DNA from: Pseudocercospora fijiensis CIRAD86
Lineage: Eukaryota; Ascomycota; Dothideomycetes; Mycosphaerellales; Mycosphaerellaceae
Length of the DNA stretch: 64,000 nucleotides
Direction: 5' to 3'
Assembly (NCBI RefSeq): GCF_000340215.1
Contig: NW_006921532.1
Span: 6,910,550-6,974,549, forward strand
In this document: positions 1 to 63,812 of the stretch, in pieces
Numbering within the stretch: the first letter of the stretch is position 1
Layout of the letters: each line of letters starts with the position of its first letter
The notes under the pieces: model-generated
The model's input: only the letters and a program-made list of their open reading frames with translations
What the model was told of the DNA's origin: nothing
Database searches by the model: none
Program-made: the position numbers and the translations under genes

Positions 1-546
1 AATCTAATCTAGGGCTTTAAAATCCTTACCTATAGTCGTAACGCGATTTACGTAGATAGCTATAAGGACAATAGCTAAAATAGTATTAGTATAGTTCCAA
101 AAGAGGTAGTGGAATTTAGTAGGAAATTCTACCTAGATATCTTCCGCAGTTACTACTTTAATAGTAATAATACTACTATATATAGTCTAACTATCTAGTA
201 TAAAGACCCGGCTAGAGGTACTAGCTATAGTAATCTTATAAGTAACCTAACTCTATTACTAGGAAATATAATAAATATCTATACTACGGTAGGCTATACT
301 AAATAAGTTAGCTATTTAGTAGGAATAGGCCTACTACCGTCTCTATATACCGGCTCCGAGTGCCGACTATGCCTCTAGATTTAACTCCCCCCTATCTCGA
401 AGGCTAAGGTACCGAGTAGAACCCCTATACCTTATATCTACTCGGTTATCGCGGAGCGCCTATAAGTAAGATATTAAAAAAGTATATAAAATATACGAGA
501 AGAGCATCCTAGGATATAGGTCGTTAGTAAATAATAGTAGTACGCC

Positions 547-2415
547 TAGTTATTTATATAGTACGTTACTCTAAACGACTAGGAGCCTATATTATCTCGT
601 ACTTCGCTTATAAGACTATATTATATACGACCGGGTAAGTATAGTAGGGAGGTAGAGGTAGTATCTTAGAACGAGGCTTCTATATATCTTAAAATCTCTT
701 ATACGGGCTATACGTTCTTCTTCGTTAGACTCGTAGGTAGAGTCGTCGCTAGACTCTACTAACTTATACTATCGATCTCCTCCCTAGTTATCCTAGCTAT
801 ACGAGTAGCGGTAAGCGATAATATCTAGATCGTATAACGATCTCTCTTCTTCTTTAGTTATATATACTTCTACTTCTTAGTATAGTTAAACTACGAATAC
901 TATTAAGGCAAGCCGGGATATAGAAAGAAACTAGTCTAAATATAGCTCGTCTCTGTAATAATCGAGTAAACATAAGGCGCTAGGTTTCTACTTCGTACCT
1001 TATATCTAGGTATAACGCGGGAATAAAACTAGGAGTATAGCCGGTATATATAGCTAGTAAAAGGATGCGAAAATAGGCCTCCTCCTAGGTTAATAGAACG
1101 ACTAAATACAAATCCTAATTAATCCGCTATAAACCGACGCCAAATCTTAGCTAGAAGCTATATATTTTTATATTAAAGAGCAACCCGCTTCGTATAGATA
1201 GTAAGGAGGTTAGAAAGCTTAAACTCGGTTATAAGAAATATCTAGGGTTGCGTTAGTCTACTTTACCCCTCGCCTACGTTCGGGGATTTAAACTATACAT
1301 AAAGACGCACTTTCTAAGTAGGCTATACGTAAAAGTCGACGATAGCACTATTATAGAGTAAATATAATAGGAAACTAAATATAAGTACGATAAGAGATAA
1401 GAAACAGTAGATTTCCGCTATATTAGTAACTAGTAAATTGCGACTAAGGACCTTAATCTAGCCTCTTAGCAAAACTCTAGTCTACTATATAATCGATTAC
1501 TTTATATATCGGCCTATATATCTATTATATAATCTACTACCCTCTCCGCCCTCTCTGCCTTAGTTAACCGCTTAGTACGTACCCTCTTTATATTTTCGCC
1601 CTTTTTACGCCCTATACTAAGTTTTCTATACTCTTTATATACTAGAAAGAAAGAATGCGAGGAATACGCGCCTTAGAATAAGGTAGACTAGCTTACTAAG
1701 GATTATATAAGAAAACGGCGGTAGTAAAGTCTATAGCTATAATATACTCGGATAAGGCTATATATATAATATTTAGACTCGCGGTTCCTTACTATACCTA
1801 CCTAGATATCCGAATAGGACTAGAATATACGATTATATCGAGGTTTACGTATAGCCTACTAAGAAAGTGCGATTCTATATATAGTTGAAATCCCCGCGAC
1901 TACGGGATAAAGTATAACTAACGAAACCCCGGATACCTTCGTAGCTTTCGAGAGATTACTAATCGCTATAGCCGTAAATTATATACTAGACTTAAAATCT
2001 AATATAATTACTTAGACAAGTCGCTAGAAGGGAGTTATAGAGATTAAAAGCTCGGTCTACCTTTTATCTTAGAATAGCCGGATCTCGCGAAGGGTAATAG
2101 TATCCGGTTTAAGGCGCCGCTTCTTTATCGTCTAAACCTACCTTTTACCCTTTTTTATAGAAGAATAGCTTTTCTTCGTAATAGTCTTCGTCTGTCTACC
2201 TTTTTAGCTACTCTATCCTTCTTATATCTACCTAAAGTATTCTTATTTCGTAGTACTGTTTTCCGAGTAACCCCCTTCCCTTATATATACTATATATAGT
2301 ATTCCTCTTCCGATATTTCGTTCTCGCTACGGTCTTCCTATACTTAGCTTACTTTACTCGTACTCTATTCTAAGTTCTAAAGGTATCTTTATATACGTTC
2401 GGGCGACGAAGGTAT
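547..2415 (-). pseudogene. RIP-decayed histone H3-fold protein, left-arm copy, split by insert
   Basis: Inverted-repeat counterpart of the plus-strand copy at 2620-3790, read on the minus strand. It carries the same basic tail (ARTKYRK near 2325) and the same H3 core. The core is broken in alpha-2, within the codons for EATEAFLV, by the 693-bp element at 1241-1933. Stops are TAA/TAG as expected from RIP. The endpoints are projected from the right-arm copy. Confidence 0.65.
1241..1933. mobile_element. MITE-like DNA element with ~55-bp terminal inverted repeats, TA target
   Basis: Present in the left palindrome arm and absent from the matching site in the right arm (near 3098-3103), so it is an insertion. 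The left end TCTAGGGTTGCGTTAG and the complement of the right end TCCGGGGTTTCGTTAG begin inverted repeats of about 55 bp that share ACTTTA, CCC and GGGGATTT blocks. TA flanks both sides (1239-1240 and 1934-1935), as for Tc1/mariner-type elements. At 693 bp with no visible transposase it is probably non-autonomous. Confidence 0.72.
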
Positions 2416-2573
2416 ATCGCTAAGACCTAGAAAAATTAATAAGCCTATAATTGTAAAGAGATATTTATACTTCTTATACTCTAGACTAAATAGTCTTCTA
2501 TTAAACCGTCCTAGTCGGTTATCGTTAGATTCGTAATTAGGATAGTCCGTGTCCTTACTAGGAAGTATTATAG

Positions 2574-4150
2574 AATATCTCTTTACGATTATAGGCTTAT
2601 TAATTTTCTAGGTCCTAGCGATATACCTTCGTCGTCTAAGCGCATATAAAGATACCTTTAGAGCCTAAAGCGCAAGGTTAAAGCAAGCTAAGTATAGGGA
2701 GACTGTAGCGAGAACCAGATATCGGAAGAGTAAGACTCTCCGTAGTATATATAAGGGAAGGGGGTTCCTCGGAAAACAGTACCGAAAAACAAGAAGGCCT
2801 TAGATAGATAAGAGAAGGCTAAAAGGAGTAGGTACACGAAGACTATCGTAAAGAAAAGTTATTCTTCTATTAAAAAAGGGTATAAGGTAGGACTCGACGA
2901 TAAAGAAGTAGTACTTTAAACTAGGTACTATTACCCTTCGCTAGATCCGGCTATTCTAAGACAAAAGAGGGACCGAGTTTTTAATCCCTAAGACTCTCTT
3001 CTAGCGACTCGTCCGAGAAATTATATTAGATTTTTAGTCTAGTATACGATTTACGGCTAAGGCGATTAATGCTCTTTAGGAAGCTACGGAGGCATTTCTT
3101 GTAACCGAGTTTAAGCTTTATAACCTCCTTGCTATTTATACGAAGCGGGGTACTCTTTAATATAAAGATATATAGCTTCTAGCTAAAATTCGGCGTCGGT
3201 TTATAGCGGATTAGTTAGACTTTGTATTTAGTCGTTAGATTAACCTAGGAGGAGGCCTATTTTCGCATCCTTTTACTAGCTATATATACCGGCTATACTC
3301 CTAGTTTTATTCCCGCGTTATACCTAGATATAAGGTACGAAGTAGAAACCTAGCGCCCTATATTTACTCGGCTATTATAGAGAAGAGCCATATTTAAATT
3401 AGTTTCTTCGTATATCGCGACCGAGTAGATAGTTAGCGAAAGGGCGATAGAACGTTTATAATACGTATCTATTTAGACCTAAAATACAAAGGTCCTAAGG
3501 AGCCCTAATATACTAACTATAAAGAGATTCTTTAGTATTAGCACTTTAATCTTCTATACTACGAGGCAGATAGTAAGCCTACGAGAGAGAAATTTTAATA
3601 AGAGATTCTCTATAATACGTAGCGCTATTATATAGCGACAGATACGTACTAAGTCCGGCAACTCGAAGAAGATTAAGATAGCGACTAAGGAAGAGATCGA
3701 TAGTATACTAGTAGAGTCGAGGTCTTATAAGCGAAGTACGAGATAATATAGGCTCTAGGTCGTATAGAGTAACGTACTATATAAATAACTAGGCGTGCGA
3801 CTCTTATTTACTTACGACCTATATCCTAGGATACTCTTCTTATACTTTTTATACTCTTTTCTAATACCTTACCTATAAGCGCTCCGCGACAACCGAGTAA
3901 ATATAAGCTATAGGGTTTCCGCTCGGTACCTTAGCCTCCGAGATAGGGCGGAGTTAAATTTAGAGCGATAGCCGGCACTCGTAGCCGGCATACAGAGATG
4001 GTAGTAGGCCTTTTCCTACTAAATAACTAGCTTGTTTAGTATAGCCTACCTAACATTTCTCATATTTCCTAGTAATAGGCCTAGGTTATTTATAAGATTA
4101 CTGTAGCTAGTAAGGCAATTACTAAAGAATATCTATACTATAGTAGGATA
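2574..4150 (+). repeat. Right arm of ~4-kb inverted repeat
   Basis: Reverse complement of the left arm, uninterrupted. It carries the more complete copy of the histone-fold frame on the plus strand. Similarity to the left arm fades near 4150, where the two outer flanks differ. Confidence 0.9.
2620..3790 (+). pseudogene. RIP-decayed histone H3-fold protein, right-arm copy
   Basis: Frame with codons starting at positions equal to 2 modulo 3. Read through TAA/TAG it gives a basic N-terminal tail (ARTRYRKSK at about 2708), then an H3 core. Recognisable are LGTITLR (RPGTVALREIR region), TEFLIPK, RLVREI, RFTAKAINAL, EATEAFLV, YNLLAI, TKRGTL, KDI and LLAKIRRRF, ending near 3202. These align colinearly with the alpha-N to alpha-3 helices of histone H3. 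Loop 1 is short as in H3, not lengthened as in CENP-A. The same frame then continues about 185 codons beyond the usual H3 end with no frameshift seen, so the fold may sit inside a protein of roughly 390 residues. The true start and end are unknown. The H3 identity is firm by motif order; the extension is inference. Confidence 0.75.
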
Positions 4151-4638
4151 CTATTATTACGCCGAGTGTTTGTTAAAAGGAGGCTTTTGCCTATTACTAT
4201 ACCGGCTATATATACCGGCTATATTTCAAAGTTTGCCGCACCTGCCTTTTTTAGCCGTATCTAACTTCTTTTCTTGCTCTAACGTTACTATAATATAGGC
4301 TTGCGCGACGCTTACTCTATTACCTAGCGATACCGCGATACTACCTCTCTCGCTATATTTAACCTTCGTATCGATACCTATACCTCTACGCTCTATATCT
4401 ACTACCTCCGTAATATCCTCGCTCCGCGCGCGCCTTCGTATACCTTCGTAACGTACTTTCTTTATTAATTCGACGACTTTTATAATACCGAGTCTACTTA
4501 ACTAAGTTATAACGACTCGTACGAAGGGACCTACTACTTCTACGGGTTATAATAAGACCGGAAGTAGTAGAACGAGTATAGTATATTAACGCAAGAAGGC
4601 TACTACTACTACCGCTAGCTCTAGTACTAGAAAGAGCG

Positions 4639-4738
4639 NNNNNNNNNNNNNNNNNNNNNNNNNNNNNNNNNNNNNNNNNNNNNNNNNNNNNNNNNNNNNN
4701 NNNNNNNNNNNNNNNNNNNNNNNNNNNNNNNNNNNNNN
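4639..4738. other. Assembly gap, 100 N
   Basis: Exactly 100 N, the usual placeholder for a gap of unknown length between contigs. Continuity of order and orientation across this point rests on scaffolding only. Confidence 0.99.
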
Positions 4739-4739
4739 C

Positions 4740-7700
4740 GACGACTAGGCAAGACGACGACTAGCGCTTCTACTACTAGTAGCAATAATCGCACGAAGCG
4801 TCGATAGCGCCTAGGAAGTAAGTCCTATCTATAGCCGGTAGCGTAGCCGGCATTCTTACTATTCTTTTACTAATCCTTCTTTAGCCGTAGCCCTTCGTTA
4901 GATTCGGATATATTAGAAGGATACTAAACTCCTAATCCGTAAAGCTCCTTTCTAACGACTTATTCGTAAAATTGCCTAGTATATTATATAGGACCTTCGC
5001 TTCTAAGCCTCTATAATAGATACCCTTTAAGAGGCTTTAGAAGCCTACCTTATTTGTATCTACGAATATATATTTCTCTTCTACCTCTTTTCGAACTATA
5101 CTAATACTATTTTAGCTATTGTCCTTACAGCTATCTACGCGAAGCGTATTACGATTATAGATAAGATTTTAAAGCCCTCGATTAGATTCTAAAAGGCTAG
5201 AATGTCTATATTCGAAATAGTACTACTATATAGGATAGATATTATAGTAGGAAGGATGTTCTTAGTGTTATCTATAAGCGTTTTCTATATACGAAATAAG
5301 CCGCTATTATACGGCGCTATATACCGCGCTCTAAATACTCCCTAAGTATATATATATATATAGTATAGTATACTTTATTAGCCGTACGGAATAGAAGTCT
5401 TCAAAAATCCCGTTAGTACTAAGGAGTAACAACGCCGGCTACGCTACCGGCTACGCTAATAGCTACGCTACTAGGTCTTTTAAAGAACTAGAAGAAGATA
5501 GATATTTTAGTTAATTTGTATTAGTTTAGATTTTTATAAAAAGAAAATAGGGAAAAGGAAGGAAGGTTAAAGAGCCTAATACTTATAGTTATAGGCATTA
5601 TCCCTGTTTTCTAGACTATATTATATACCTGCCTTCGCAACTCTACCTAATACTTACTCTAAATATCCTTATACTCTACCTACTAGAAATTCAACTAGAT
5701 ACCTAGACCTATAGCTGCCTCTATATCTTTTACTATCTTCTATAGGTTAAAGGACTCCTCTATAGCAGCCTCTACATCCTTATATAATACGAAGTTACTA
5801 CCTACCCTACCCTTTATATCTACTAAATAACTAAGAGTTCTAAGGAACGAACTAGCATTCGGCCTTAGTATAGCGAGTAACTAGTAGAACGTAGTATAGA
5901 GCTATTTTATAGCTCTTTTATATACTATACCGATACCGAGGGAAGAGCTATCCTATTACTTAATATTAGAGAATAGTTTAGTAGGAAAGTGTTAGAACTT
6001 CTTAAAGAGGGCTTCTAGGGAAATCGATAAGTTCTACCTAGATATAGATAATAATATTCTACCGAGTAGTTAGGGAATTAAATAGCGAGCGAAAGGATGA
6101 AATTTATACCTAATAAGTGTAGTTTCTAAACTAAACCATAATAGCTTGTATATATATATGCTCGTAATTAGTTAGTGCCCTTAGCTAATTATCTATAGAT
6201 TTAGGGTTATATAAGTACCTTCCTACAACTAAAAAATGCCGGCTACGCTACCGGCTATACTCTCGTGTCTTATAAAGGGCTTGCTTCGAGTTACGTATAT
6301 ATTCTTATACTTCTTAGAAACCGATAAATTCTATAATTCGAACTAGCTACTCCTATAGTTGCTTAGCAAACTAACCTAAACCAAACTAGATCTTTAGCTT
6401 AGCAAACTAAACTAAACTAAACTAACCCGAACTACTACGGGGTCTAGTCTCGACTCGTACGAGTTCCATACTACTTTAGGTACCGCTACCTAGCTTCCCT
6501 ATTTTTTATAGTATCCCGTTATACTTCTTAGTAGATATAATATATAGTTTTCGTCCCCGTTGTAATTATACCGTAGTTAACTAAAGCTAAGGCGAATAAC
6601 GCCGTAGGCTTAGAGCTAGTACTACTATATTAAAAGGGCATATAAGGCTACAGTTATTATTAAGTATATTGTCTCTACGAATACAAAACTAAAGAGCTTA
6701 CTTACGAGTCGGGTAGAATCGAGTATAACAACGCTTACTAACGATAATAATAGTTATCTTCGGCTACTTCTCCTTACTACCGTAGAGCTTCGTAAAGGCC
6801 TTTTCGAAAGACGGTAGTTCTATCTACAGGACTAGTTTATACTAGCCTTCCGAGACGCTATTCCGGTAAATAATAACTTTGTTTAGTAGAGAGCTATTCT
6901 TCTTATACTACAAATTTAGACGCTTAATTACCGTTTCTTCGAGCCTATTAGCTGTTTCTTAGCGGCTATCCTACATACAGATCGAGCCTAGCTATTAGAG
7001 TACATACTTATTAACGCTAGTAATAAGCGTAGCTATTAATAGCGTACCTTCGAGGAGCCTAGCGACGGGTAGGTAATATTAATACTAAATAGTAGTGTTG
7101 TCTCGTTATCGAGCAGTTCACCACTAAAGGCATTTAGTACACAGTACGCTACGCTACTATCCTTTAAGTTAAACTTAAGTACTAGATTACTAATATATAT
7201 GCCCTATCTAATAGGCTTCTAAAGCTTCGATCCTAGAGAGTAGATAGTATATATACTAAATTTAATATTACTAAATTATTTAATACGAGCGTATAACTAC
7301 TTATCGGCTTCCGGAATAAATACAAAGAGGAACCTAATACCTATACTCTCCTAGGCCGCTATCGCGAAGATATTAGTATTATATTACGTAGCTAGCGGTT
7401 ACTAAAGTCGCGATTCTATATAGTAGTAAGGGTCTCTAGTAAGATTTCCTACGTAGGCTTAATACGCTAGCCTATACTAATACTATATAACTTTATATAC
7501 TTTTTAACTCTCTTAATTAAGTTTTAAGATTACCTAGGTCCCTATATAGCGTATTGCCTCGATTGCCTTTACGGTTAATAATTAAAAACGACTACCTATT
7601 AGATTTTCTAGGTCTAGTAAACTTAACGCCCTATAAGTTCTAGGAGCCCTTCTACGGCGTAACAGGTTTCGAATTCGAACTACAGCTTACGTAAAGAGTA

Positions 7701-9185: not shown

Positions 9186-9980
9186 CGATACTATCGTACT
9201 ACGAGCGGATATTATACTACTTGTAATTAGTATTAGCTACGTCAAATACTACGAAAGGGTCTGAGAGAGGTGCTTAGGTTGTTGCCTCGCCCCTCCTAGT
9301 ACCTAGACATATATAGCAAACCGGGCCTATAGTCTCTAAAAATAGGGGACGTTAGGCTATTCCCTATACCCTAGGAACTCGCTTAGCTAAACTTAAGTTT
9401 TCGGATTTTATATATTATAAGTTAAAACCGTCGGTATTATATATAATTATTATTAATATATTGTCTTCTAGACGCGGTAAGGTATAATAGTACCCGCTAA
9501 ATTCGGATTTACGTATTTCGAGGTATAGTTGTTGCTTATTATTATAGTATCGTAGTATTATCGTTAGTCTTACTAGTATACGTTAGAATTCTCGGTTAGT
9601 CCTATAGAGTATCTATACTAATAGTTGCCTATATAGCGATAGCACAATAAGGAACCTAGATATACTCTAAATTACCTTACTCCCTATACTTTATACTATA
9701 AGAATTCGAATAGTATTAATAAAGGCCTACTATAGGCGGAAGAGAGGGTTCTAAGAGGGGATTCTTCCCCCTAGTATAGCGCTAGGACTTGTTACTAGAA
9801 TACAGACACCCTTATTAACCTAGTATAATATACTATTCCTATATTATCCTAATAGAGGTGCTATTATAGTGCGCTATATACTATAGTATAAATTATAAGT
9901 AGACTCTTCTAACTACTAAGTATAGCTATATATACTACGATAGGTTATACTACCTATAGAACCTTATACTATTATAGCTA
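9186..9980. other. Unassigned RIP-decayed sequence
   Basis: No coding or repeat structure was recognised between the tandem units and the trinucleotide tract. Confidence 0.4.
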
Positions 9981-9981
9981 A

Positions 9982-10197
<216 letters not shown>

Positions 10198-10200
10198 GAG

Positions 10201-11600
10201 TATTAGCCTCCGCTTAGTACTACCTACTAGGAATCTAATTTACTAGTAACATTTAATTTGCTATATAGGCCTCTAACCGTATACTAATTATATAGGTTAA
10301 CCTACTATTTGTCGAGATATAGTTAATACTATAAGGAGCTATAACTAGCTAGCAATAGTTAATACCTAAATAGTAACTACTCGCCTATCGGATTAAGTAT
10401 ATACGTTATATTCGCGTTAGACTTTGCGATACTCGTTAAATATTATTATAAATCTAAGCGTTTATAGAGGCAAAATATGTAGCTAGAACTAGGCAATAGT
10501 TCAGATTAATATACTATTAGTCGAGGTATAGCTCAATTTAATTTACTATATAGTATTATATTTAGTCTAGTAGCTATTAATATACTAGGTATCTATCTTA
10601 GATCTTAGGTAGATAAAATATTTAGAAGGTTATAATTGTAACTCTTAAGCCTATAGGTAGCCTATATAGACTAGAATAATCCTTAGGTTGCCTTGTATTC
10701 TCCTATATAGAAACCCTTTTTCTTCGGGCCTAGAGGCTAGTAGATAAAGCTTAGGTCCCTTCGTATTAGAATACTAGTTATACTCCTAGTGCTTATTTAA
10801 TAGGTTTTAAGTTACTATCTATAAGATACTACTAGTATTCCTATAAAGTCGTCTAGTAATATGCTAGCTCTACGTTCTTTAGTACTCCTAATAGTATAAG
10901 GTTTTATTCTATTTTTATAATAGACTATTACTAGTATATATTAGTAGGATAACGAGTCGAAGGCTAATTACAAGTATACGAAGATATACCTAGTATATTA
11001 GTTTAAGTATTATATATAACGAGATTATAGTAGAGTACTCTATTAGGGTCGAATAAGACATACTAAGTGTATGCGTAGACACATAGCTATACGTTTACGT
11101 ATATCGGATCGGGAGACCGGCAATCCCGGATACGAAGATTCTATTATGCTAGGATTATATATTACGCTAAGTAAGGATATAATATCTTTGCGCTTTTCTA
11201 TACGCTCGAACCCTCTTCTTCTTTCTCTACTACAAACTACTCGTACGTATTAGACCTAGAGCCCTCTATATATACCTATACGCATTCCTAATTCGCTTAG
11301 TACTAGAATCAATTCTAGTGTTTATATATACATCCGCACAAAGCTATATATATAGCAGTCGACTATACCGTAGGATATTAAGGGCTACGTATTCCCGAGC
11401 TCGCTCGTTAACGGTAGCGTAAGTACATTCCTATAGCTATACGTCGCTATATACTAATACGTAAACAGAGCAGCTACCGCAAGTACAAAAAGCGTCTACT
11501 TGCTAGCGAGCTAGTCTCTCTACTAATTCTAGATATCGTCGTAAGCATTCTTCTACCCTTACCTATCTATATACTTATATATATAGATATGCCTAAAGAA
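10201..11600. other. Unassigned RIP-decayed sequence
   Basis: No gene or repeat was recognised. A 60-codon open stretch at 11071-11253 has no visible family motif and is likely chance. Confidence 0.4.
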
Positions 11601-48610: not shown

Positions 48611-49125
48611 CTAGCATCTTCGGAAGGCCTATTTTGGCTGGTAATATCGACACTTCTTAGATGCGGATATCTACCGGAAGCTGACTCGAAAACTGACTCA
48701 AGCACTGGCTCCACCGGCTGCTAAAATACTATGACATCCAAGCATAATTGCAGATTTCTCTGCGCCGCGCAGTGGGCGGGGTTGGAGGGAGGCATGGATC
48801 GGCTGTCCCAATTGGCTGATCAAGGTACCGCGACAAGGGTTTGTCTCGCGCTGTCCGATCCAGGGCACGACCTCGAATGCTGGAGGTGGTGTGGTGCTGC
48901 TCTCCTGCAAACGCTCAGATGGAAGGGTGTATGCTTGCAGTGAACTACCACAATTGCTCAATCCAGAAAGGAGATGTTCGAAGAGAAGGCGGAAAGTAGT
49001 TCTTCTCGAAAGGTTCTTACTGTAGTGTTCGGCGAAACATTATTCCGAACGGGCCTTTCCGTTCTGCTTTCCCCTGCATCAAATGGTGCGCCACCCGATC
49101 CACAGTCCGTTAGACGGTTAGACCG
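48611..49125. other. Border zone with no gene
   Basis: The sequence returns to normal composition (CA, TG and ATG frequent). Two overlapping short ORFs on opposite strands at 48,698-48,961 have no recognisable motif and are probably chance. Confidence 0.5.
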
Positions 49126-49128
49126 TTA

Positions 49129-49743
49129 GGCCCTGTCTACTTGCAACAGGTTATGGCGTAAACCGAGAGATTATAATAACCTCATAAGCGGCTCAGATTA
49201 TGGCGACTTATAATCGGTTATCCATGAGACAGTGCCAGGTGTTAAGACCCACATAATAAGCCTCCGGCTCGGCAGCCACACTCCACCTCTTTGTAGTAGG
49301 CCATATAGCTTCCAGTGGTATTTATGATGATATCGATGACGGCGCAGTAGGTGGTAAATCGGCGGGCGAAGGGCGGGGAGGACGAGTGCTTCGGCGAGTG
49401 TGGTTTGTGGTGTAGTTACTGTATAAATATGCGGTTAGTCGAGCAGCTAGTCTCTCAGTTTGAAGCCATTCGAATACTGGCAAATATGGTCTCCCAATCG
49501 ACGGATTCTCAGCCCTCTCAGGCGCCATGCCGGAAGTCTATAGGGCGCACGGATAGGCTTGAAAGCTCCTCAAGAGTTGGTTATGCTGATCATACCATAT
49601 ATGGCATAATCTCAGCGAGTTTACGAGCACAGCGATAACCAACGATTCAATAATCGTTGTTACATAAGACAGGTTGGTTATTGGAAGAGTTGTTATAATC
49701 TACGGCCAGGTTATGCTATAACCTGTTGCAAGTAGACAGGGCC
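49129..49743. mobile_element. Tourist/Harbinger-like MITE, 615 bp
   Basis: Ends are inverted repeats starting GGCCCTGTCTACTTGCAACA, identical over at least 26 bp and similar over about 40. It is flanked by a 3-bp TTA on both sides (49126-49128 and 49744-49746). A 3-bp TTA/TAA target and a GGCC start are hallmarks of PIF/Harbinger elements and Tourist MITEs. No transposase frame inside. The sequence is not RIP-mutated, consistent with a young or single-copy element or one too short for RIP. Confidence 0.82.
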
Positions 49744-49746
49744 TTA

Positions 49747-50135
49747 GAGAAAGCGTTCCTGCGTGACGACGAGCCTTCGCGTCCAGCAAGGAAGGCACTA
49801 CCGGAGAGACATTCTGCAGAGGTTGGCATCGTCATCTCCTACTCCTCCTTGCAAACATCCTCTACCCCAGCACCCAGAACTTCGTACTGCACTGTCGCTA
49901 TCCAGCATTTCCTACATCGCTCTTTTCCTTGACATCATTTCGCTTGTGTGACGCGTGCCTGGTGTCACGGTCTGCTTGGGCATTGATCGCGAGTGGAGCT
50001 TGTGCGCGCGCATTGTCGATTCACTCGAGGAAGAAAGTTGGTGAATAGTTGCAGGCTGGGCCTGGAACGTGTTGCCACACCCTGTATTGTCCATCTTTCT
50101 CTTATTTGCAACTTCACCTCATTTGAAGCCGCGGC
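49747..50135 (+). promoter_or_regulatory. Upstream region of the mechanosensitive channel gene
   Basis: About 390 bp between the MITE and the start codon. Pyrimidine-rich tracts (CTCCTACTCCTCCTTGC, TTCCTACATCGCTCTTTTCC) are typical of fungal promoters and leaders. No clear TATA box. The MITE ends only 390 bp from the start codon. Confidence 0.4.
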
Positions 50136-52973
50136 ATGGCATCTCACCTACAACCGAGCGCGAGCCAGCGGAAAAGATTCTCGCGCGAAGGCTTCCGCCC
50201 AATTCCTCCTGATCAAGCTGATTACAACCACAACATGGCGCCAAGCGATGTGACGATCGATATCCCACTTGAGCCCGTCAAGACCAGTGCGAGCAGCGGC
50301 GGTGGACTACGGAATCACAGTGCTCAGAATGTCGGCTTGCAGCCCATCAACACCAATTCGCAGAGCAGCGAGAAGAAGAGCTGGATTCGAGGCAGGCGGA
50401 CGAAGCCTGTCGAAGGACAAGGTACGGGTCGAGTCGGATACGATGGCGAGGAAGATACGCTTACAACCATGGGCAAGATCTATGACAAGATCCTGGGCTT
50501 CTCCATCATCACCAGATATTTTCTCTATGTCCTGCCGTTGGGACTGCTGATTGCCGTTCCCATCATTGTCGGATCTTTCTACAGCGAGAAGAACATGCCT
50601 GAAATCGGAGGCGTGTCGCTCGTCTGGTTCTTTACATGGGTCGAAATTGTCTGGCTGTCTCTCTGGGTTTCGAAGATCGTGGTACATTTCTTGCCTTTCG
50701 TCTTCCAGACACTGGTCGGCGTGGTCAGCTCTGGTGTCCGCAAATATGCGACAGTTCTTCGCAAGCTGGAGATTCCATTGTCCCTGGTGGGATGGGCGGT
50801 CACGTCTCTGGCTACATTCAAGCCACTTATGGAGAAGAACCCCTACAATCGCAAGACCGCTCACAATCTGAGCGCTTCTAATACCAAATGGGTTACGATT
50901 GTGCAGGAAATTCTTGGTGCTGCCGTGGTTTCGACTCTGGTCTTCCTTGCTGAGAAGTTCATCATCCAGCTCATCAGCATCAACTACCACAGGAAGCAGT
51001 TCAATGCGAGGATTAAGGATTCTAAACGACAAGTCTACATTCTTGGACTGCTATACGATGCATCGACTGCACTGTTCCCAGCATATGGCGATGAGTTTCA
51101 GGAGGAGGATTATGCCATTGCTGATCAGCTCAACTTTGCCGCTTTCGGCGGCAAGAGGAAGCGGACGCACAAGAGATCGGGATCGGCGACACCTATGCGT
51201 GCGTTGCAAGAACTCGGTCGCTTGGGTGACAAGGTCACGTCTGCTTTTGGAAATGTCGCATCTGAGATTACCGGAAAGGAAGTCTTTAACCCGAACAGCT
51301 CGCACTCCATTGTGGTCGAAGCATTGGAACGACGACGCACTTCCGAAGCCCTTGCTCGCCGTATCTGGATGTCCATGGTGATGGAAGGCCACGAGGAGCT
51401 TCGCGAGGAAGACATCGTCGACGTTCTGGGACCAGATCGCAAAGCTGAAGCCGAAGAGGCATACGAGGCTCTAGATCGAGACGGGAATGGCGATATTTCT
51501 CTTGATGAGATGATTCAGACTGTCGTCGAGTGGGGTCGCGAGCGTAAGGCAATCGCGACCAGCATGGTGGATGTCGCTCAAGCCATTAATGTCTTGGACC
51601 GCCTCCTTCAGACCGTGGTACTGGTCGCCGTGGTCTTCATCTTCATTGCTTTCCTCAACAAAAACTTCGTCACGACTCTTGCGACGACCGGAACAGCACT
51701 TCTCTCGCTGTCCTTCGTCTTCTCGGTCACTGCACAAGAGATCCTCGGCTCCTGTATCTTCCTCTTCGTCAAGCATCCTTTCGATGTTGGTGACAGGGTT
51801 GACATTGCAGACAATGCATTCCTTGTGGAACACATCAGTCTGCTGTTCACCGTCTTCCGCAGGGCGAACGGAAACAAGACAGGGCAGCTGTGCCAGTACC
51901 CGAATATTGTGCTCAACACGCTTGCACTCGACAACATTAGCAGAAGCAAGGCACAGACTGAACAAATCACCCTGGACATCTCCTTCGACACGAAGTTCGA
52001 CGACATTCAAATTCTCAGGAACGAGCTTGTTCGATTCGTCACCGACAAGGACAATTCGCGCGACTTCCTGCCAGACTTGGACGTGGAAGTGCTTGGTACA
52101 TCTGACATGTCGAAGCTGCAGCTCAAGGTGGAGATCAGACACAAGAGCAACTGGGCCAACGAGACACTCCGCGCAGCGAGACGAAGCAAGTTCATGTGTG
52201 CGCTGGTCGCCGCGCTTCGTGCTGTCCCGATTTATGCCCCAGGTGGTGGTGGCGATGCTGCAGGCAGCGCAGCAAACCCCAACTACTCTGTGGCAATCAC
52301 AGATTCTGAAGCCAAGGAGAATGCGCAACACACCGCCGATGAGCGGGAGAAGGCTCGCCTCGTCGCGACCAAGAAGATCCAGGAAGCAAAGGAAGCGACT
52401 GCGATGGGCATGACTGGCATGAAATCTGGCGATGCCAAGGTCATCAACGACCTCAACTCGCGAGATCCAGCTATTGACACTGCTCGGGATCAGGCATGGG
52501 CTTCAGGACGCGACGATAATAGCACTCTCGGCGAACGACCCAGCATCGACCAACAAGACCTGAACGACGTTCGCAGCCTCCTTCGTCGGGAGAGCACACG
52601 TGGCAAGCGCAAGGCTAGTACCGAGCAGTCTCGTCCATATGCTCCAGGTGTCCCTACGATCAACGAACCTCACCAAACGACATCCGCACCACCTCAGGTT
52701 CAATTCCCAGGTTCCGAAGCTCGGCAGCCAAGCCCGAACCAGTTTCCCAATTTCCCGAGTCCTTACAGACCTACTCAGCAGTACCAGTCTGCTCAAGGCT
52801 ACGTCCAACCACGCAGTAATGTTGAGATGAGCCAGATTCCTCAGCAAGGCACGAGTAACCCGTATAGGAGTCGGGGGCAAGAGCAGGCTTTGAGTCCACC
52901 TTCTGCTCGACGGGTGGGGGAAAGAGATGACGAAGATGATGCATGGAATGGGAGGCCATACTCTGGCGTTTGA
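50136..52973 (+). CDS. MscS-family mechanosensitive ion channel with EF hand
   Basis: A single exon of 945 residues. Fungal MscS-like channels of the Msy1/Msy2 type sit in ER or cortical membranes and release ions under osmotic stress. N terminus (1-110) is polar. Predicted membrane segments lie at about 125-147, 159-181, 253-275 and 489-508, with the pore-lining region at 510-545 (TALLSLSFVFSVTAQEILG). The MscS beta domain follows from HPFDVGDRVDI (547-557). An EF-hand loop DRDGNGDISLDE is at 447-458, just before the pore helices, as in Msy1/Msy2, implying Ca2+ gating. Residues 770-945 are Pro/Gln-rich and probably disordered. Length is close to the family norm (about 900-1,000). A downstream Met (residue 34) is an alternative start. 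Confidence 0.93.
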   Translation: MASHLQPSASQRKRFSREGFRPIPPDQADYNHNMAPSDVTIDIPLEPVKTSASSGGGLRNHSAQNVGLQPINTNSQSSEKKSWIRGRRTKPVEGQGTGRVGYDGEEDTLTTMGKIYDKILGFSIITRYFLYVLPLGLLIAVPIIVGSFYSEKNMPEIGGVSLVWFFTWVEIVWLSLWVSKIVVHFLPFVFQTLVGVVSSGVRKYATVLRKLEIPLSLVGWAVTSLATFKPLMEKNPYNRKTAHNLSASNTKWVTIVQEILGAAVVSTLVFLAEKFIIQLISINYHRKQFNARIKDSKRQVYILGLLYDASTALFPAYGDEFQEEDYAIADQLNFAAFGGKRKRTHKRSGSATPMRALQELGRLGDKVTSAFGNVASEITGKEVFNPNSSHSIVVEALERRRTSEALARRIWMSMVMEGHEELREEDIVDVLGPDRKAEAEEAYEALDRDGNGDISLDEMIQTVVEWGRERKAIATSMVDVAQAINVLDRLLQTVVLVAVVFIFIAFLNKNFVTTLATTGTALLSLSFVFSVTAQEILGSCIFLFVKHPFDVGDRVDIADNAFLVEHISLLFTVFRRANGNKTGQLCQYPNIVLNTLALDNISRSKAQTEQITLDISFDTKFDDIQILRNELVRFVTDKDNSRDFLPDLDVEVLGTSDMSKLQLKVEIRHKSNWANETLRAARRSKFMCALVAALRAVPIYAPGGGGDAAGSAANPNYSVAITDSEAKENAQHTADEREKARLVATKKIQEAKEATAMGMTGMKSGDAKVINDLNSRDPAIDTARDQAWASGRDDNSTLGERPSIDQQDLNDVRSLLRRESTRGKRKASTEQSRPYAPGVPTINEPHQTTSAPPQVQFPGSEARQPSPNQFPNFPSPYRPTQQYQSAQGYVQPRSNVEMSQIPQQGTSNPYRSRGQEQALSPPSARRVGERDDEDDAWNGRPYSGV

Positions 52974-53522
52974 GAAGCACCAATGATTGAAGAAAAAGTC
53001 CTCGAATAGACTACCAAAATGGCGTTGGAATGGCCTCCAGCTACACTTGAATTTTGGCTGTGTTTTGGCATGTGAAAAGCATGGAAAGTTTATGACGAGT
53101 GTATACGAAGGTCAGGTACATAGTCGAAAAGAATCCGACAGGACCCGAGAAAGGTGACAGAACGATGAACAATGAAGCAGTTCTTCTCACTTTGCCTCTC
53201 TGGTCTGGATACGACGGCTGTAGATCAGGCTTGGCCTTGGCAGGGTCTTGACATGGCGGCTTCTACTTCTGGACACCGCACCGCCACCACTTGTACCATC
53301 AAGACCAAGAGTATCTAACTTCACCTCGCGAACTGTCCTGAGTCATCTTTCGTTTTGGGTAGGTACTCGGAAGTCAATTTTGATGGAGGTTGATGGGGGC
53401 TTGATGTATAAGTAACAGGGCAGGGGCTGCTTGATATTCACCCAATTGTTTCCTACTACACGATCCTCCGACTTCCCACGCCCTTCACCACTTCCCAAGA
53501 AAAAAGAACCACCAACAAAAAA
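52974..53522. promoter_or_regulatory. Intergenic region with ABC-F promoter
   Basis: About 550 bp. A TATA-like GATGTATAAGTAAC is near 53,402, followed by a pyrimidine-rich leader (CCCACGCCCTTCACCACTTC) and an A-rich stretch directly before the ATG at 53,523. No other gene. Confidence 0.5.
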
Positions 53523-55754
53523 ATGCCAACCCCCAAACCCTCCAAATCCTCAATTTCCTCGGGCCCAGGTTCCTTAACCATCACATCCCAGCAATCTCGT
53601 TTCCACACCGAAACTTCGGAATTTCCCAACACTTTGAAAGAAATCTCGGTGAAGGATCTTAATGTTGCGATTGGGGGAAGGGAGTTGTTATCGCATGCTG
53701 AGTTTCAATTACAGAGGGGGAGACGATATGTTTTGCATGGGAGGAACGGGATGGGGAAATCTACGCTTCTCAAAGCGATTAAGGAGGATTTGATTCCTAG
53801 TGTTCCGAGGGGGGTTAGGAGGGGGTTTGTGGGGCAGGTTGAGATGGAGGAGGCAGGGAGGGATGGTGGGGAGTTGAGTGTGTTGGAGTTTGTGGTTCGA
53901 AGTGATGAGGGACGGGAAAGACTTTTGAGGGAGGAGAGGATGATTTCTGAGGCTTTGGAGAGGGGGGAGGATTCTATGGGTGTTGTGAAGGTTTATCGGA
54001 GGGTTTTTTATGAGAGGTTGGAGAGGAGGTTACGTGATGTTAGACAGATTGCTTTGAGGAGGAGTGGGGCACGGGGGAGGAAGACGAGAGAGGAGGAGTT
54101 GAAATTGGAGGGGGAGGTGGAGGTGGCTCGCCAGAAATGTCTGTTGGAGGAGGCGAGTGTTGAGGAGATGGCGGTTGAGTCGAAGAAAGCTGTTGAGATG
54201 TTGACTGATGTGCAGACTTCGCTGGAGCTTATGGATGCGGAGGGTGCGGAGGCTAAGGCAAGAGATGTTCTGAAAGGACTGGGGTTTTCGGAAGAGCGCT
54301 TGATGAGACCTCGATCACATCTTTCTGGTGGATGGCGGACGAGATGCTCCCTCGCGTGTGCTTTATGTCGAACCGTGGATCTGCTACTCCTCGACGAGCC
54401 TACGAATTTCCTCGACCTGCCCTCAATCATCTGGCTAGAACGCTACATTTCCGAAGAACTCAGCCCCGACACCACAGTCCTAGTCGTAACCCACGACCGA
54501 GCATTCGGCGACTCAATCGCAGAAGAGCTCCTCATCCTCCGCAACCAACTCCTCGAACGCTTCCGCGGAAACCTCTCACAATACGAAACAGATCGTTTAA
54601 AATCCTACAAATACCTCACCCGCATGAAAGAAGCCCAAGAGAAACAAAAATCCCACCTCCAATACCAAATTCAAGGAAACATCAACGCCGCCCGCCGCGC
54701 CGGTGACGATAAGAAATTAAAACAAGCTGCTTCTCGCAAGAAGAAACTTGATGAACGAATGGGAATGGAAGTCAGCGCCAAAGGTACAAGATTCCGATTA
54801 AATGACCAAGCAGGTTACTTCAATTCTTCAAGACAGGAAATCGAAGTCCCGGATTTCGATCCACCCGTGGAATTGAAGATCCCTACGCACCCGCCCGATC
54901 TCAGGTTTTTTGGAAGTCTTGTTTCGTTTGAGGGTGTGGGTTTCTCGTATACCACCTCGATAGAAGAAGGAAAAGGAAAAGGAAAGAAAGCGGAAGAGAA
55001 AATTTTGGTTTTAGAGGATGTGAATTTTACGATTCATCAAGGAGATCGCATGGGGGTTGCGGGTTTGAATGGGTCGGGGAAATCTACGCTTGTGAAACTC
55101 GTGATGGGGAGGAAGGGGATGGAGTTGGATTCGGGAACGATTCAGATGCATCCTCGAGGGAAAATCGCGTTGTATTCTCAACTCTCTGCTTCGGAGTTGG
55201 AGATTTTGGCAAATTCGAGGCCGGGACTTACGGCTTTGTCTCTGCTTCTCGAAACGATGCCGGCCGAGAGCAAGGAACAGGAAGCGCGCGCAATCCTTTC
55301 GGGATTGGGGTTGGTTGGAAAGATTGCTTCGGATGTACCCATCTCTTTGCTTTCCGGTGGTCAAAGAGTTCGATTGGCTCTGGCACGGATATTTGTTGAT
55401 CCGCCGCATCTTTTGATTTTGGATGAAGTCACGACGCATTTGGATACGGATACGATTTTGGGGTTGGTGGAGGCTTTGAAGGGGTATGAGGGTGCGGACC
55501 TGGTTGTTACGCATGATAGGTTTTTTATGAAGACTGTGGTGGAGGGTGTGAGGGTTGGGGATTTGGCTGTTGGGAATAGGCCGGGAGAGAATGAGGGGGA
55601 GAGTGAGGAGAGTGAGGAGGTTGAGGAGGTTGAGATTAAGAGGACGAGGGGTGTGTTTAGATTGGCGAAGGGGAGGTTGAGGAGGTTGGAGCGTGGGATG
55701 GAGGAGTATGAGGAGATTGCTGCTAGGTCGGCGTCGAAATTGGGGAAGATGTAG
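53523..55754 (+). CDS. ABC-F family ATPase (two nucleotide-binding domains)
   Basis: 743 residues, single exon, no membrane segments, so a soluble ABC-F protein of the ribosome-associated type (relatives: Gcn20, Arb1, bacterial Uup). Domain 1: Walker A GRNGMGKST (73-81), signature LSGGW (267-271), Walker B LLLLDEPTNFLD (287-298), H-loop VVTHD (321-325). A basic, helical linker follows (about 355-415). Domain 2: Walker A GLNGSGKST (514-522), signature LLSGGQ (609-614), Walker B LLILDEVTTHLD (630-641), H-loop VVTHD (661-665). Domain 1 has a long charged insertion (about 115-250). Domain 2 reads DEVTTHLD instead of the usual DEPTNHLD. The start is supported by AAAAAAATGCC. Codon choice flips from G-rich to C-rich and back within the gene. 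The exact ortholog group is uncertain. Confidence 0.92.
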   Translation: MPTPKPSKSSISSGPGSLTITSQQSRFHTETSEFPNTLKEISVKDLNVAIGGRELLSHAEFQLQRGRRYVLHGRNGMGKSTLLKAIKEDLIPSVPRGVRRGFVGQVEMEEAGRDGGELSVLEFVVRSDEGRERLLREERMISEALERGEDSMGVVKVYRRVFYERLERRLRDVRQIALRRSGARGRKTREEELKLEGEVEVARQKCLLEEASVEEMAVESKKAVEMLTDVQTSLELMDAEGAEAKARDVLKGLGFSEERLMRPRSHLSGGWRTRCSLACALCRTVDLLLLDEPTNFLDLPSIIWLERYISEELSPDTTVLVVTHDRAFGDSIAEELLILRNQLLERFRGNLSQYETDRLKSYKYLTRMKEAQEKQKSHLQYQIQGNINAARRAGDDKKLKQAASRKKKLDERMGMEVSAKGTRFRLNDQAGYFNSSRQEIEVPDFDPPVELKIPTHPPDLRFFGSLVSFEGVGFSYTTSIEEGKGKGKKAEEKILVLEDVNFTIHQGDRMGVAGLNGSGKSTLVKLVMGRKGMELDSGTIQMHPRGKIALYSQLSASELEILANSRPGLTALSLLLETMPAESKEQEARAILSGLGLVGKIASDVPISLLSGGQRVRLALARIFVDPPHLLILDEVTTHLDTDTILGLVEALKGYEGADLVVTHDRFFMKTVVEGVRVGDLAVGNRPGENEGESEESEEVEEVEIKRTRGVFRLAKGRLRRLERGMEEYEEIAARSASKLGKM

Positions 55755-56006
55755 ATACTACGCAATGTCATATCCGTCATGGGTGGAATGTGAGTGAAGT
55801 AGGACGAGAGAATCAAATCTGGTAATCAAATTCGGATGTCGGCGACTGCCGGCACGTGGAGGTGGCGGCATGTGAACGGCTCCAGCTGTGACGTCGCGGT
55901 CCAGCCCACCTTGGCTTCTCAAGCCCAAGACAACGAACATTCGCGCCCAAGAATAATCTCTGCCTCGCATCCAGACAACCTCGACAATTCACGCCGACAG
56001 CTCATC
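55755..56006. promoter_or_regulatory. Short intergenic region before DID2
   Basis: About 250 bp between the ABC-F stop and the DID2 start, both on plus. Nothing specific was recognised. Confidence 0.35.
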
Positions 56007-56737
56007 ATGTCCGGGCTTGAAAAAGCACTCTTCAACCTCAAGGTCCGCCAATCCAGTCTAGCCTAAGCCTGAGCCTCACTGACCCATCCCTCCCCATCAC
56101 AGTTCACAGCCAAACAACTCAACCGCCAGGCAGCAAAAGCGACCAAAGACGAACAAACCGAGAAAGCGAAGCTAAAGAAAGCAATTTCGCAAAACCACAA
56201 CGACATCGCAAAAATCTATGCGCAAAACGCTATACGGAAAAAGAACGAGAATCTCCAACTCCTCACCCTCGCTTCGCGCATAGATGCCGTGGCTTCAAGA
56301 GTCCAGACCGCGGTCACGATGAGGCAGGTCACGGGAAGTATGGCGAATGTGGTTAAGGGAATGGATAGTGCGATGAAGAGTATGGATTTGGAGAAGGTAA
56401 TAAACAACATACACACATACATGCACGCATGGAGAAGAGCAGAGCAACCACTGATGCTTTTTCACGATAGATCTCAGCCGTGATGGACCGTTTCGAAACA
56501 CAATTCGAAGATTTGGATGTCGCGACGGGGTATTACGAGAACGCTACTTCGAGTGCCACGGCTACGGGGACGCCGCAGGAAGATGTGGATCGGTTGATGA
56601 GTCAGGTCGCGGATGAGGCGGGTGTGGAATTGAGTCAGGAAATGGCTGGGGCTACGCCGGCGAAGAATATTGCGCAGCCGGCGGAGGAGGAGAGGGAGGA
56701 TAAGTTGGGGGAGAGGTTGAGGGCTTTGAGGAGTTGA
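56007..56737 (+). CDS. DID2: ESCRT-III-associated protein Did2/CHMP1, three exons
   Basis: Exons 56007-56042, 56103-56396 and 56471-56737; introns of 60 and 74 bp with GT..AG ends and a CTGAC branch-type site in intron 1. Joined product is 198 residues, matching CHMP1/Did2 (about 196-204). The start [12 protein letters not shown] followed by [10 protein letters not shown] is characteristic. The central part is the basic coiled Snf7 core ([33 protein letters not shown]). The end carries the MIT-interacting motif, [13 protein letters not shown], which binds Vps4. Role: regulating Vps4-driven disassembly of ESCRT-III at endosomes. Confidence 0.95.
56043..56102 (+). other. DID2 intron 1
   Basis: 60 bp, GTCCGC..CACAG. 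Removal joins NLK to FTAKQL, restoring the conserved CHMP1 start. Confidence 0.92.
56397..56470 (+). other. DID2 intron 2
   Basis: 74 bp, GTAATA..GATAG. The AG at 56469-56470 is used rather than CAG at 56475-56477, because only the former keeps the frame (DLEK then ISAVMDRFE). Confidence 0.9.
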
Positions 56738-58092
56738 GGGGGTGGGGCGGTTGTTGTCTTACTTGGGAGGGTTTTATACATGGCGTGGCGTTTTTGGGGG
56801 GGTTGCTATTACTGGAGGATGGATGGGGTGTATTTTTTCTTTGAGAGACGACATGGATGGGTTTGGTTTGCTTGCTGCCGATCACATGGTATGGTTCGAA
56901 ATGTCTCATGATGATTGACATTAGCATTAGCGAAATATCTTCGGTCTCGAAAAGGGCGATCGCAAGAGCGTCAATCACAGCCGCAGCCAAGCGAGCAGCA
57001 CTGTTTCAGGTGGATCATTGTCGTGGTGGACTACGCTCTGGGAAGGGAATCATTTCTGTGAGAGAGTATCTTCGGAAATCTTCCTCTGCAACAGCTTCTA
57101 CTCTGGAACACGAATTCAATGATCATACCACTCTCGAATGCATATCTGCGCTCTTTCTGCAAGACCAAATGCTTACGCGCGAGCCCTGAATCTCAAAACA
57201 GGCAAGAGTCTTGTTGTGCGAAAGTCTTGAGTCTGGAGGCACAATGACTGTGGCTTGTGATCTAATACGCCAAATGTCTTTGGCTTAGGCCTAGGCCTTT
57301 GTCTGAGTTTCGAAATGCAAATCTTGAATATGGACTACCGTACGAAATCTTAGATGAGTAATGCTTCTAATCACCTTGTCATTCATTCTAGATACAAACT
57401 TATCAAACCATCGAGAGAATCCCTCGCAACATACAAAAAAAAAAGACTTCATAGATCAAGCCGGGATGCCAAGGAAACGGCAGAATTGATCGATTCCGAG
57501 AATCTTTGGGTAGGAAGTCGTTGCTGAGCTCGTCTCATCGACTTCCTCATGTTGAAAAAGGACAAGTAGACGTGATTTCGAGTCGCAGGAGGCCTAATTC
57601 CTCCGAAGTATAGAGATAATGCCTCGAGCTTAACCTAAGCGTCTTTTTCATTAGATCGTCGACTAGAGAAGATGGCTTGTTTTGAGCTTGCAGTTTTTAG
57701 GTGGCAGGTGGATAGTAGTCCTATGGGAAAGGATGCCTTCGACTTAGAGGCCTTAGCAAGGACTTGGCGGGCTGAAAGGATGCTGTATGATAGCTCGATT
57801 GTATAAAGGAATGGTAAGGTGATTGCAGGCGGCTTCTATGGCTTGCACTTGAGGCTCGGAATTTGGACTGCATCTTCATGCATACGACACTTTTTTCCTA
57901 TCTTGAAGTTGATCAAAAGTGAATCTTGTCTTTGTCGTGGATGAGACTTCCAAGTGAAGCCGAATTAGCAGATTTATGCTTTCCCCGGCTATACTTCGGC
58001 AGGACGCGTGATTCTGGCAAGCTCTCGCAAACATTCTTGTTTGCAAACACCATCGAGGTCAACAGCACCACCACGCCTCCTAATACCGCGAA
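56738..58092. other. Intergenic region, no supported gene
   Basis: About 1.35 kb. Contains opposing short ORFs (56,857-57,189 plus; 56,652-56,990 minus) and an A-rich run near 57,435. None shows a conserved motif. It probably includes the DID2 3' end and the NIC96 promoter; an unrecognised small or non-coding gene cannot be excluded. Confidence 0.45.
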
Positions 58093-61016: not shown

Positions 61017-61709
61017 GGGTTGGTTTGAGAGGAGAGTGGAGGGGAAGTGGAAGTGGGTCTTGTATGATGAGTAGCGCTTGAAGACACGAGCGCTGGGTTT
61101 GAAAAGGTAGGTCGGTAGTCGGAATCACGTTTCAGGATCTTATTTTCAGCCTTCGCGTTCACGTGCTGTGCCTGTATATCAAGTCAAGTAGCGAATGTGC
61201 ACGATACCCGCTATCCCATGCCTCAAATATTCATCGGTAGTCGCAACGCAACGCCCAAATATTCATAACTAGTACCATACCATTCGGGAATTTTCTTCCC
61301 AAACCTCTCGAATTCTTGTCTCGCCTCACTTACACCGCCAATTTTAGTCGAATGCACAAAACAAAACAAAAAAACCCCCATCGATTCCTTCAAGACACTC
61401 TTCGAAGTATGAAAATTGATCAAAACGTTTTTGGTACGGTTGCTGTACGCCAAGAACAGAATTACCTTAAGCTATATATGACCTCTCCGTGGACAGAATG
61501 GAAGAAGCAAGTAACCTGCAGCAGCAGCAATCGAATTATTAAGTTTTCAGGCTCTTGAATTAGGACCGGGAGACTGTGCAAAATCCAAGTCTTGGCAAGT
61601 GTTGGTGGCATCTACTATGTATAGACTTGAAGAAGAAAATTGTAGCGCGTTTTTCAGAGCTTATTCGCCATCGAAATTCGCCTCGCATGTTCAATTTCCT
61701 TCTCCTCTA
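61017..61709. other. Intergenic region between convergent genes
   Basis: About 690 bp between NIC96 (plus) and the F-box gene (minus). Only 3' ends are expected here. Short ORFs on both strands lack motifs. Confidence 0.5.
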
Positions 61710-62336
61710 CTACTTCAAATTCTGCCCATCCCGTTGACCAGAATACAACGCCCTTGACATGCCACCCAAATGCACTCTTCCCGCCTTAACAGCCTCATCG
61801 GCAATCTCTCCCAAAGTCGAAGTCCGACTAAAAGGAATCATAACATCATATCCACAACAATGTAATTCAACATTATGTTCAGGATGGTGTGGCACAAAAA
61901 TCTTGCGCCAGCTCTCATACCGCTCGATTGGGGTCGTACCGTCTAAAGTTCCTGGGATTGGATGTCCTCCAGATATGTCTTCGCTCCAGAACATTGAGAC
62001 GTTCATGCCTAAAATGATTGTTTGGGGGTTCGGGATTGGTCGGACATGGGACCAGAATGGGTAGAAGACGTTTTCTAGGGAGAAGAAGAATTTGCGGTAT
62101 TTGTCGGTTGCGTCTGCGAATTTGGATGTTGCGGTGCGACGAGCATCTGGTTGTTCGAGGTGCATGCAGCGGCGAAGGTCTGGCGAGGTTCTGATCAAAG
62201 ATTGGAATGTGGTATTGACCCTTTGTATGACGAATAGTTGTTTCCACGTTGTATGGTTCAAGCTGCCGAGTTGAAGGAGGATAAGTTCTGCTAACTCCGG
62301 AACCATGAAGACTGATGTTGAAGCGTCGCGATGCAT
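61710..62336 (-). CDS. F-box domain protein
   Basis: 208 residues, single exon, minus strand. The N-terminal F-box-like motif (about 10-52) reads VFMVPELAELILLQL then TTWKQLFVIQRVNTTFQSLI and RTSPDLRRCMHL, the pattern of F-box families expanded in Dothideomycetes. F-box proteins bind Skp1 and recruit substrates to SCF ubiquitin ligases. The rest (60-208) has no recognised repeat domain such as LRR or WD40, so the substrate is unknown. Start ATG at 62,334-62,336 precedes the motif by nine codons. Confidence is moderate because the family is divergent. Confidence 0.8.
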   Translation of the reverse strand: MHRDASTSVFMVPELAELILLQLGSLNHTTWKQLFVIQRVNTTFQSLIRTSPDLRRCMHLEQPDARRTATSKFADATDKYRKFFFSLENVFYPFWSHVRPIPNPQTIILGMNVSMFWSEDISGGHPIPGTLDGTTPIERYESWRKIFVPHHPEHNVELHCCGYDVMIPFSRTSTLGEIADEAVKAGRVHLGGMSRALYSGQRDGQNLK

Positions 62337-63509: not shown

Positions 63510-63812
63510 GGTGACGGCGATGGCGATATGCTTCCGTCGCGTGCTGGTGATGCCGCGGTGAAGTTGAAGGAAGCTCTGCGCTGCAACGCGAAAACATGGC
63601 ATGCTGACACGTGAAACGTGAAACTCGAGATGTGGCTCGTGCGTCATGTCTGACCGCATGCACACGATACAAGCAGTCTATCTTGCCCCGAAGCATTCGA
63701 TTCGATATACCCCATTGACCAGGCACCACAAATATCAAACCCTTGAAAACCCCCTCCGCAGTCCTTCGGTCCTCTCCTGCACAACACCGCATCCGCATCC
63801 ACAACCGCAGCC
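63510..63812. promoter_or_regulatory. Divergent promoter of IES6 and YKT6
   Basis: 303 bp between two divergent start codons. Contains ACACGTGAAACGTGAAAC (63,609-63,625), a doubled ACGTGAAAC motif that may be a regulatory site, and CCGCA-rich leader sequence before YKT6. Confidence 0.45.

Follow-up and report, generated by a model that had tools for sequence, protein, structure and literature searches.

The genes and features at the locus

The window analysed here, a stretch of 64,000 nucleotides from Pseudocercospora fijiensis CIRAD86, contains two broken histone H3-like genes in the remains of a transposon. The locus combines, head to head, two truncated fragments of an element 9.1-9.9 kb long, with 20-bp TIRs and 8-bp TSDs. 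Both fragments break off at almost the same point of the element, and the left part of the plus-strand copy is absent. The features, in window positions, are as follows.

1..2546, minus strand: another fragment of this element family, inverted and facing the plus-strand fragment head to head
1240..1932, no strand assigned: insertion of about 690 bp whose ends are inverted repeats, splitting the H3L1 of the inverted fragment
2574..6446, plus strand: RIP-mutated hAT element, right part only, from about element position 5660 to the right end, matched by blastn to 19 other loci
2623..3238, plus strand: H3L1, a dead histone-H3-like ORF (start, tail, indel near 2870, fold, stop at 3236-3238)
2882..3193, plus strand: H3 fold of H3L1, from Pfam, PDB H3 and phmmer matches
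3239..3790, plus strand: claimed C-terminal extension, most likely non-coding
4639..4738, no strand assigned: 100 consecutive N within the tail exon of H3L2, where relatives have tandem repeats
about 4739-4817 and before the N run, plus strand: H3L2 tail exon, upstream of 4885
4818..4884, plus strand: intron-like stretch a of H3L2 (GTAAGT ... CTAAT ... TTTAG)
4885..5190, plus strand: H3L2, a second dead H3-like gene, with exons at about 4885-5067 and 5116-5190
5068..5115, plus strand: intron-like stretch b of H3L2, 48 nt, the published "16-aa insertion"
6427..6446, plus strand: right 20-bp TIR, a motif match, near-identical to the TIR at both ends of other copies

The 19 fetched loci fall into subfamilies A (13 loci), B (2) and C (4). 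Elements with both ends measure 9531, 9922, 9938 and 9132 bp. The 20-bp TIR is present at both ends in four of five copies, the fifth being without the right TIR, and the ends differ at RIP-type sites. Identical 8-bp TSDs, read by eye, flank all four copies that have both ends. The putative assignment to hAT rests on the TIR, the TSD and the published description of the family (PMC6710886). DUF659, which that paper reports in the P. fijiensis hAT, did not turn up in the sequence scanned here, one complete copy and parts of three others. Upstream of H3L1, a Dimer_Tnp_hAT trace recurs at the same place in four of four copies (L009, L010, L012 and L025), below the cut-off (12.9-14.6 bits vs 21.4; E 0.029-0.1). 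In the same four copies and at nearly the same place, tRNA-synt_2e matches another frame with E 0.0056-0.074. Because this implausible match scores as well or better there, the dimerisation trace was given no weight, being probably no better than a chance match. The stretch concerned is among the best conserved parts of the element.

The inverted fragment retains an H3L1 remnant at 1919-2158 on the minus strand. The ends of the insertion that interrupts it (1239-1339 and 1838-1935) match each other in inverted orientation, about 100 nt at 77%, of which 59 nt at 86%, and in relatives its flanks adjoin. The insertion is probably a small non-autonomous DNA transposon; a possible TA duplication was seen by eye. 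Elsewhere in the window, positions 9928-10257 hold an array with 9- and 12-nt steps and 24 overlapping register copies.

Across the genome, 772 H3 candidates were found, and all of the 150 that were scored exceeded the Histone cut-off. Stops interrupt 148 of these; the remaining two are host H3 and CenH3, the stop-free gene L021 being read as the latter. The canonical H3 exon sits on contig 6. RIP turns CA into TA (TG into TA on the other strand), which creates TAA and TAG and destroys TGA. CA/TG dinucleotides number 15.8/kb in window positions 1-46000 vs 69.3/kb in 49000-64000. Between 46000 and 52000, AT-rich RIP-mutated DNA (GC 0.34-0.43) gives way to DNA of GC about 0.5. The preliminary description had called the sequence duplicated and destroyed by RIP, and it was right on both counts, given the inverted partner and the genome-wide matches for the one and the composition and stops for the other.

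That description had also listed H3 core motifs in the correct order, and a profile search after reversion of the stops bears this out. When the 31 TAA and TAG codons among the 390 of 2621-3790 are read as Q, Pfam Histone PF00125 matches residues 88-191 of the translation with E 4.5e-20. PDB H3 chains match it with E about 1e-22, and host H3 as a phmmer query also supports the fold. Judged by these matches, the core is that of H3 and of no other core histone.

Relatives define the rest of H3L1. Not counting its stop, the ORF has 205 codons in L012 and 197 in L027, and the N-terminal tail takes up about 79 codons ahead of the fold (L012). The protein starts MPSSP, and its tail is its own, distinct from that of canonical H3. 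The start codon (2623-2625) is ATA in the window and ATG in some relatives. The residue reads as M in 4 and I in 5 of 11 copies, A1_C10 having been translated out of frame. Wherever the nucleotides were inspected (L010, L017, L023, L025 and the window) they read ATA, the expected product of RIP on ATG. The window copy changes frame at a small indel near 2870, and the tail shared with relatives lies in the frame of 2623. ARTRYRK, previously taken for an H3-like tail, shares the frame of the fold, whereas the relatives' tail reads differently; because of the indel it is not the tail of H3L1, and we rejected it as out of frame. The stop at 3236-3238 is present in all 11 copies compared, which proves little because every one of these copies has stops at other sites too, such as the Q of FQRLV. 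From the relatives we infer that H3L1 ended there. That H3L1 is an ORF of 197-205 aa and has a tail of its own is added by the present analysis; neither the ORF limits nor the long tail were found in the available sections of PMC6710886.

The frame beyond the H3L1 stop

Does the H3 domain belong to a longer protein? The preliminary description had noted that the frame runs on in phase for about 185 codons after the core, and proposed a fused extension or an unusual nuclear protein family. After reversion of TAA and TAG, this frame is indeed without TGA up to 3790, but so are all six frames, over 2621-3790 and over 3239-3790 alike. TGA occurs at about 1.05/kb/strand in window positions 1-46000 vs 16.5 in the GC-rich 49000-64000, and 185 codons without TGA follow 82% of frame starts in the former vs 15% in the latter. 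An open frame is therefore uninformative here, because RIP nearly removes TGA.

The relatives show where similarity ends. With L012 (subfamily A) as the reference, local similarity to subfamily C stops at L012 positions 5237-5249 in four of four copies, at most 7 nt from the L012 stop codon at 5242-5244, and the subfamily C alignment has an unrelated insert directly behind the H3L1 stop. Similarity to subfamily B stops at 5374-5377 in both copies, about 130 nt past the stop. The extension is thus missing in C, lost part of the way along in B and present in A. Transversions between L012 and L010 (C) number 14/231 in the tail, 17/357 in the fold and C-terminus, and 71/293 downstream, where much of the alignment consists of unrelated letters. 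Between the window and L012 they number 13/549 downstream and 16/613 in the ORF; among the window and the A copies, the extension thus appears no less conserved than the H3L1 ORF.

Protein databases were searched with both versions. The whole frame had no homologue at E <= 0.001 among 2539 candidates. With the H3L1 ORF as query, the 120 matches listed (of 179) are H3 or Histone-domain proteins that span at most 70% of the ORF, and none of those listed is an intact homologue bearing the extension. An NCBIfam scan gave no match.

An H3 domain inside a longer nuclear protein, extended at its C-terminus by about 185 residues, would account for the TGA-free frame and for the similarity of the window and the A copies across it. 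Against it stand the equally open state of all six frames, the loss of similarity to the C copies at the stop and to the B copies soon after, and the lack of a homologue of the extended protein in these limited searches. A synonymous-transversion excess is absent downstream, though it is absent from the H3L1 ORF as well (lowest p 0.1). We rejected the long fused protein on the ends of similarity and the six open frames, and consider it extremely improbable. As far as the broken relatives show, H3 ends at about 3238 and noise follows. H3L1 would then have ended at its stop, and the frame beyond would look open through the loss of TGA by RIP. This artefact will turn up again, since most frames in RIP-mutated DNA look open after TAA/TAG reversion once TGA is nearly gone.

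A single protein across both H3 domains, which are in phase in six A and B copies, was also rejected, because the phase differs in the four C copies, TGA-poor frames are open in any case and H3L2 has its own tail exon. Separately, in A2-type copies such as L009 about 360 bp lying between H3L1 and H3L2 are duplicated in tandem, which marks the subfamily. The duplicated stretch matches window positions 3604-3955, overlapping the end of the claimed extension.

H3L2, its intron-like stretches and the route of capture

In 10 joined copies and the window, a second H3-like domain lies 1.8-2.4 kb downstream of the first and on the same strand. We aligned this gene, H3L2, from 20 copies (the 19 loci and the window). 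The exon upstream of stretch a ends in GGAA and is followed by GTAAGT in 20 of 20 copies, a branch-like CTAAT occurs in 19, and H3 homology restarts directly after the final TTAG. The length of the stretch ranges from 67 to 116 nt, with remainders modulo 3 of 1, 0 and 2 in 16, 3 and 1 copies, respectively. The full pattern, which was composed after the site had been seen and was searched on both strands, occurs once per element in seven elements and once in window positions 1-46000, always at this site. By eye, stretch a lies one codon from intron 2 of host H3. In L009-L028, stretch a contains 12-nt tandem units of variable copy number, and the tail exon contains 27-nt tandem units (APRKTTAGK-like) whose copy number also varies.

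Stretch b combines donor-, branch- and acceptor-like motifs, including CTAAT and TTTTAG, and H3 stays in frame once it is removed. It begins with GTAT in 7 of 20 copies and with ATAT in 13, the window among them. The GT donor is confined to subfamily A (7/13) and occurs in none of the two B copies, the four C copies or the window. With both stretches spliced out, 18 of 20 rows keep one frame across the fold; the other two, L016 and the window, carry indels. In all five copies tried, the spliced gene aligns with host H3 for 121-126 codons, with an identity of 52-63%. Stretch b has no transversions in its 48 nt in five of six inter-subfamily comparisons vs 13-22 per 180 nt in exon 3; by this measure it is better conserved than the neighbouring exon, which is unusual for an intron.

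How did the two genes enter the element? According to the available sections of PMC6710886, the copies lack introns, a transcript was taken as their source, and the second copy has a 16-aa insertion. Under this account, one H3 transcript or retrocopy gave rise to both genes and the second gained its insertion by mutation. The absence of introns from H3L1 at the host H3 positions fits this account, as does the conservation of stretch b. In a 49-row tree, H3L1 (three rows) and H3L2 (four rows) form separate groups with full support, which speaks against a single source, yet an AU test did not reject a common clade (p 0.27). The account is harder to reconcile with stretch a, given its splice-like motifs, its place beside host intron 2, the immediate return of H3 homology behind it and its varying length and remainder. 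It also fits poorly with the splice-like motifs of the 16-aa insert and with the intact H3 frame after its removal. We consider a single retrocopy unlikely. The two intron-like stretches suggest instead that H3L2 was not a retrocopy, and because of them we think that H3L2 most likely entered the element as genomic DNA. Three points tell against this: stretch a is offset by one codon from the host intron, stretch b is better conserved than exon 3, and its GT occurs in subfamily A only. H3L1, which has no such stretches at those places, may have come in as a retrocopy, or else through an earlier capture. The apparent introns thus change the probable route of capture of H3L2 from RNA to DNA and raise the question of two captures. 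They seem to be new, as the published account describes copies without introns and a limited literature search found no report of introns in these copies.

Histone class, function and published relatives

Over the aligned part, H3L1 is 49-52% and H3L2 52-65% identical to host H3. Neither has the canonical ARTKQTARKS tail, H3L2 keeping only a GKAPRK-like part, and because this tail is lacking we class both as H3-like rather than canonical H3. A CenH3 origin is not supported: identity to host CenH3 is lower than to host H3 in 15 of 15 rows, the extra mid-fold residues of host CenH3 are missing from H3L1 and H3L2, and no H3-like row groups with host CenH3 in the 49-row tree.

Were these genes useful to the element? 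One possibility is that H3L1 and H3L2 were functional cargo kept by selection, for instance because they changed host chromatin or became part of it, rather than passengers. It is in keeping with this that one element carries two long-tailed H3-type genes, that the H3 fold is recognisable in all three subfamilies, and that in Pyrenophora tritici-repentis the H3-like gene H3L of an H3-carrying hAT is described as transcribed and largely intact in the available sections of PMC3538342. In the H3L1 fold, 1 of 17 transversions between subfamilies A and C falls at codon position 2, which is suggestive only; transversions in H3L2 exon 4 favour position 3. Pooled over the H3L1 and H3L2 exons, however, the synonymous fraction of transversions is not significantly above expectation (A-B, 0.205 vs 0.195, p 0.46; A-C, 0.265 vs 0.195, p 0.088; B-C, 0.212 vs 0.185, p 0.33); the two control frames gave p 0.31 to 0.92. 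These fractions fit constraint as well as its absence. We regard selected cargo as unlikely. A bolder version would have a hAT with two separately captured H3 genes, one genomic and intron-bearing and one intronless, both with new long tails and kept because an H3 of its own helps the transposon in host chromatin, with the same cargo acquired independently in another fungal order. This we hold to be less likely still.

We have little doubt about the core of our preferred reading, namely that the H3 domain in the window belongs to a RIP-killed H3-like gene, H3L1, and that this gene was cargo of a hAT DNA transposon with hundreds of copies in this fungal genome. The element would have moved by cut-and-paste, as the 8-bp target duplications observed at its ends suggest, and would have carried two H3-like genes, H3L1 and H3L2, in the same orientation. 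H3L2 would have been taken up as genomic DNA, and H3L1 perhaps as a retrocopy or in an older capture. Once the element had become repetitive, RIP would have converted CA to TA and filled its copies with TAA and TAG. While intact, the proteins were most likely histones of the H3 type whose tails had changed, and they would have been expressed either as passengers or as cargo of slight use. What looked like a histone inside a longer protein thus shrinks to a known case of gene capture by a transposon combined with an artefact of frame reading.

The capture itself had been suggested in the preliminary description as a histone variant taken up by a transposon. This was correct and, as the available sections of PMC6710886 show, already published: the remnant is one of hundreds of known H3-like genes killed by mutation. 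There, Dhillon et al. (2019) describe a P. fijiensis hAT of 9.5-9.9 kb with a 20-bp TIR and an 8-bp TSD, and place the original H3 on scaffold 6. Each element carries one or two H3-like copies, which total 784 and were killed by RIP. A 2026 paper (PMC13041039, available in part) repeats the figure of 784 copies and gives the genome as 74 Mb; the assembly analysed here measures 73.9 Mb. Our element agrees with this description in length, TIR, TSD, its two H3-like copies, the 16-aa insert and the RIP-derived stops. The 784 copies compare with our 772 candidates, and canonical H3 lies on the sixth scaffold or contig in both. By length, TIR, TSD, copy number and H3 location, the element very probably belongs to the published H3-hAT family. 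The difference lies in the introns, since the copies are said there to be intronless whereas the second copy here has intron-like stretches.

The H3-like genes share the H3 fold with host canonical H3 and CenH3 and differ from both in their divergent, longer tails. Another parallel is the P. tritici-repentis H3L (Manning et al. 2013, PMC3538342), which we compared with H3L1 and H3L2 by description only. As the available sections describe it, H3L is likewise borne by a hAT, is neither H3 nor CenH3, and has insertions in its N-terminal tail. Its elements differ in being about 5.6 and 2.3 kb long, in numbering 26 copies that are mostly intact, and in having ESTs and a central ORF. No nucleotide similarity was seen between the P. 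tritici-repentis and P. fijiensis elements, according to the sections of PMC6710886 that compare them.
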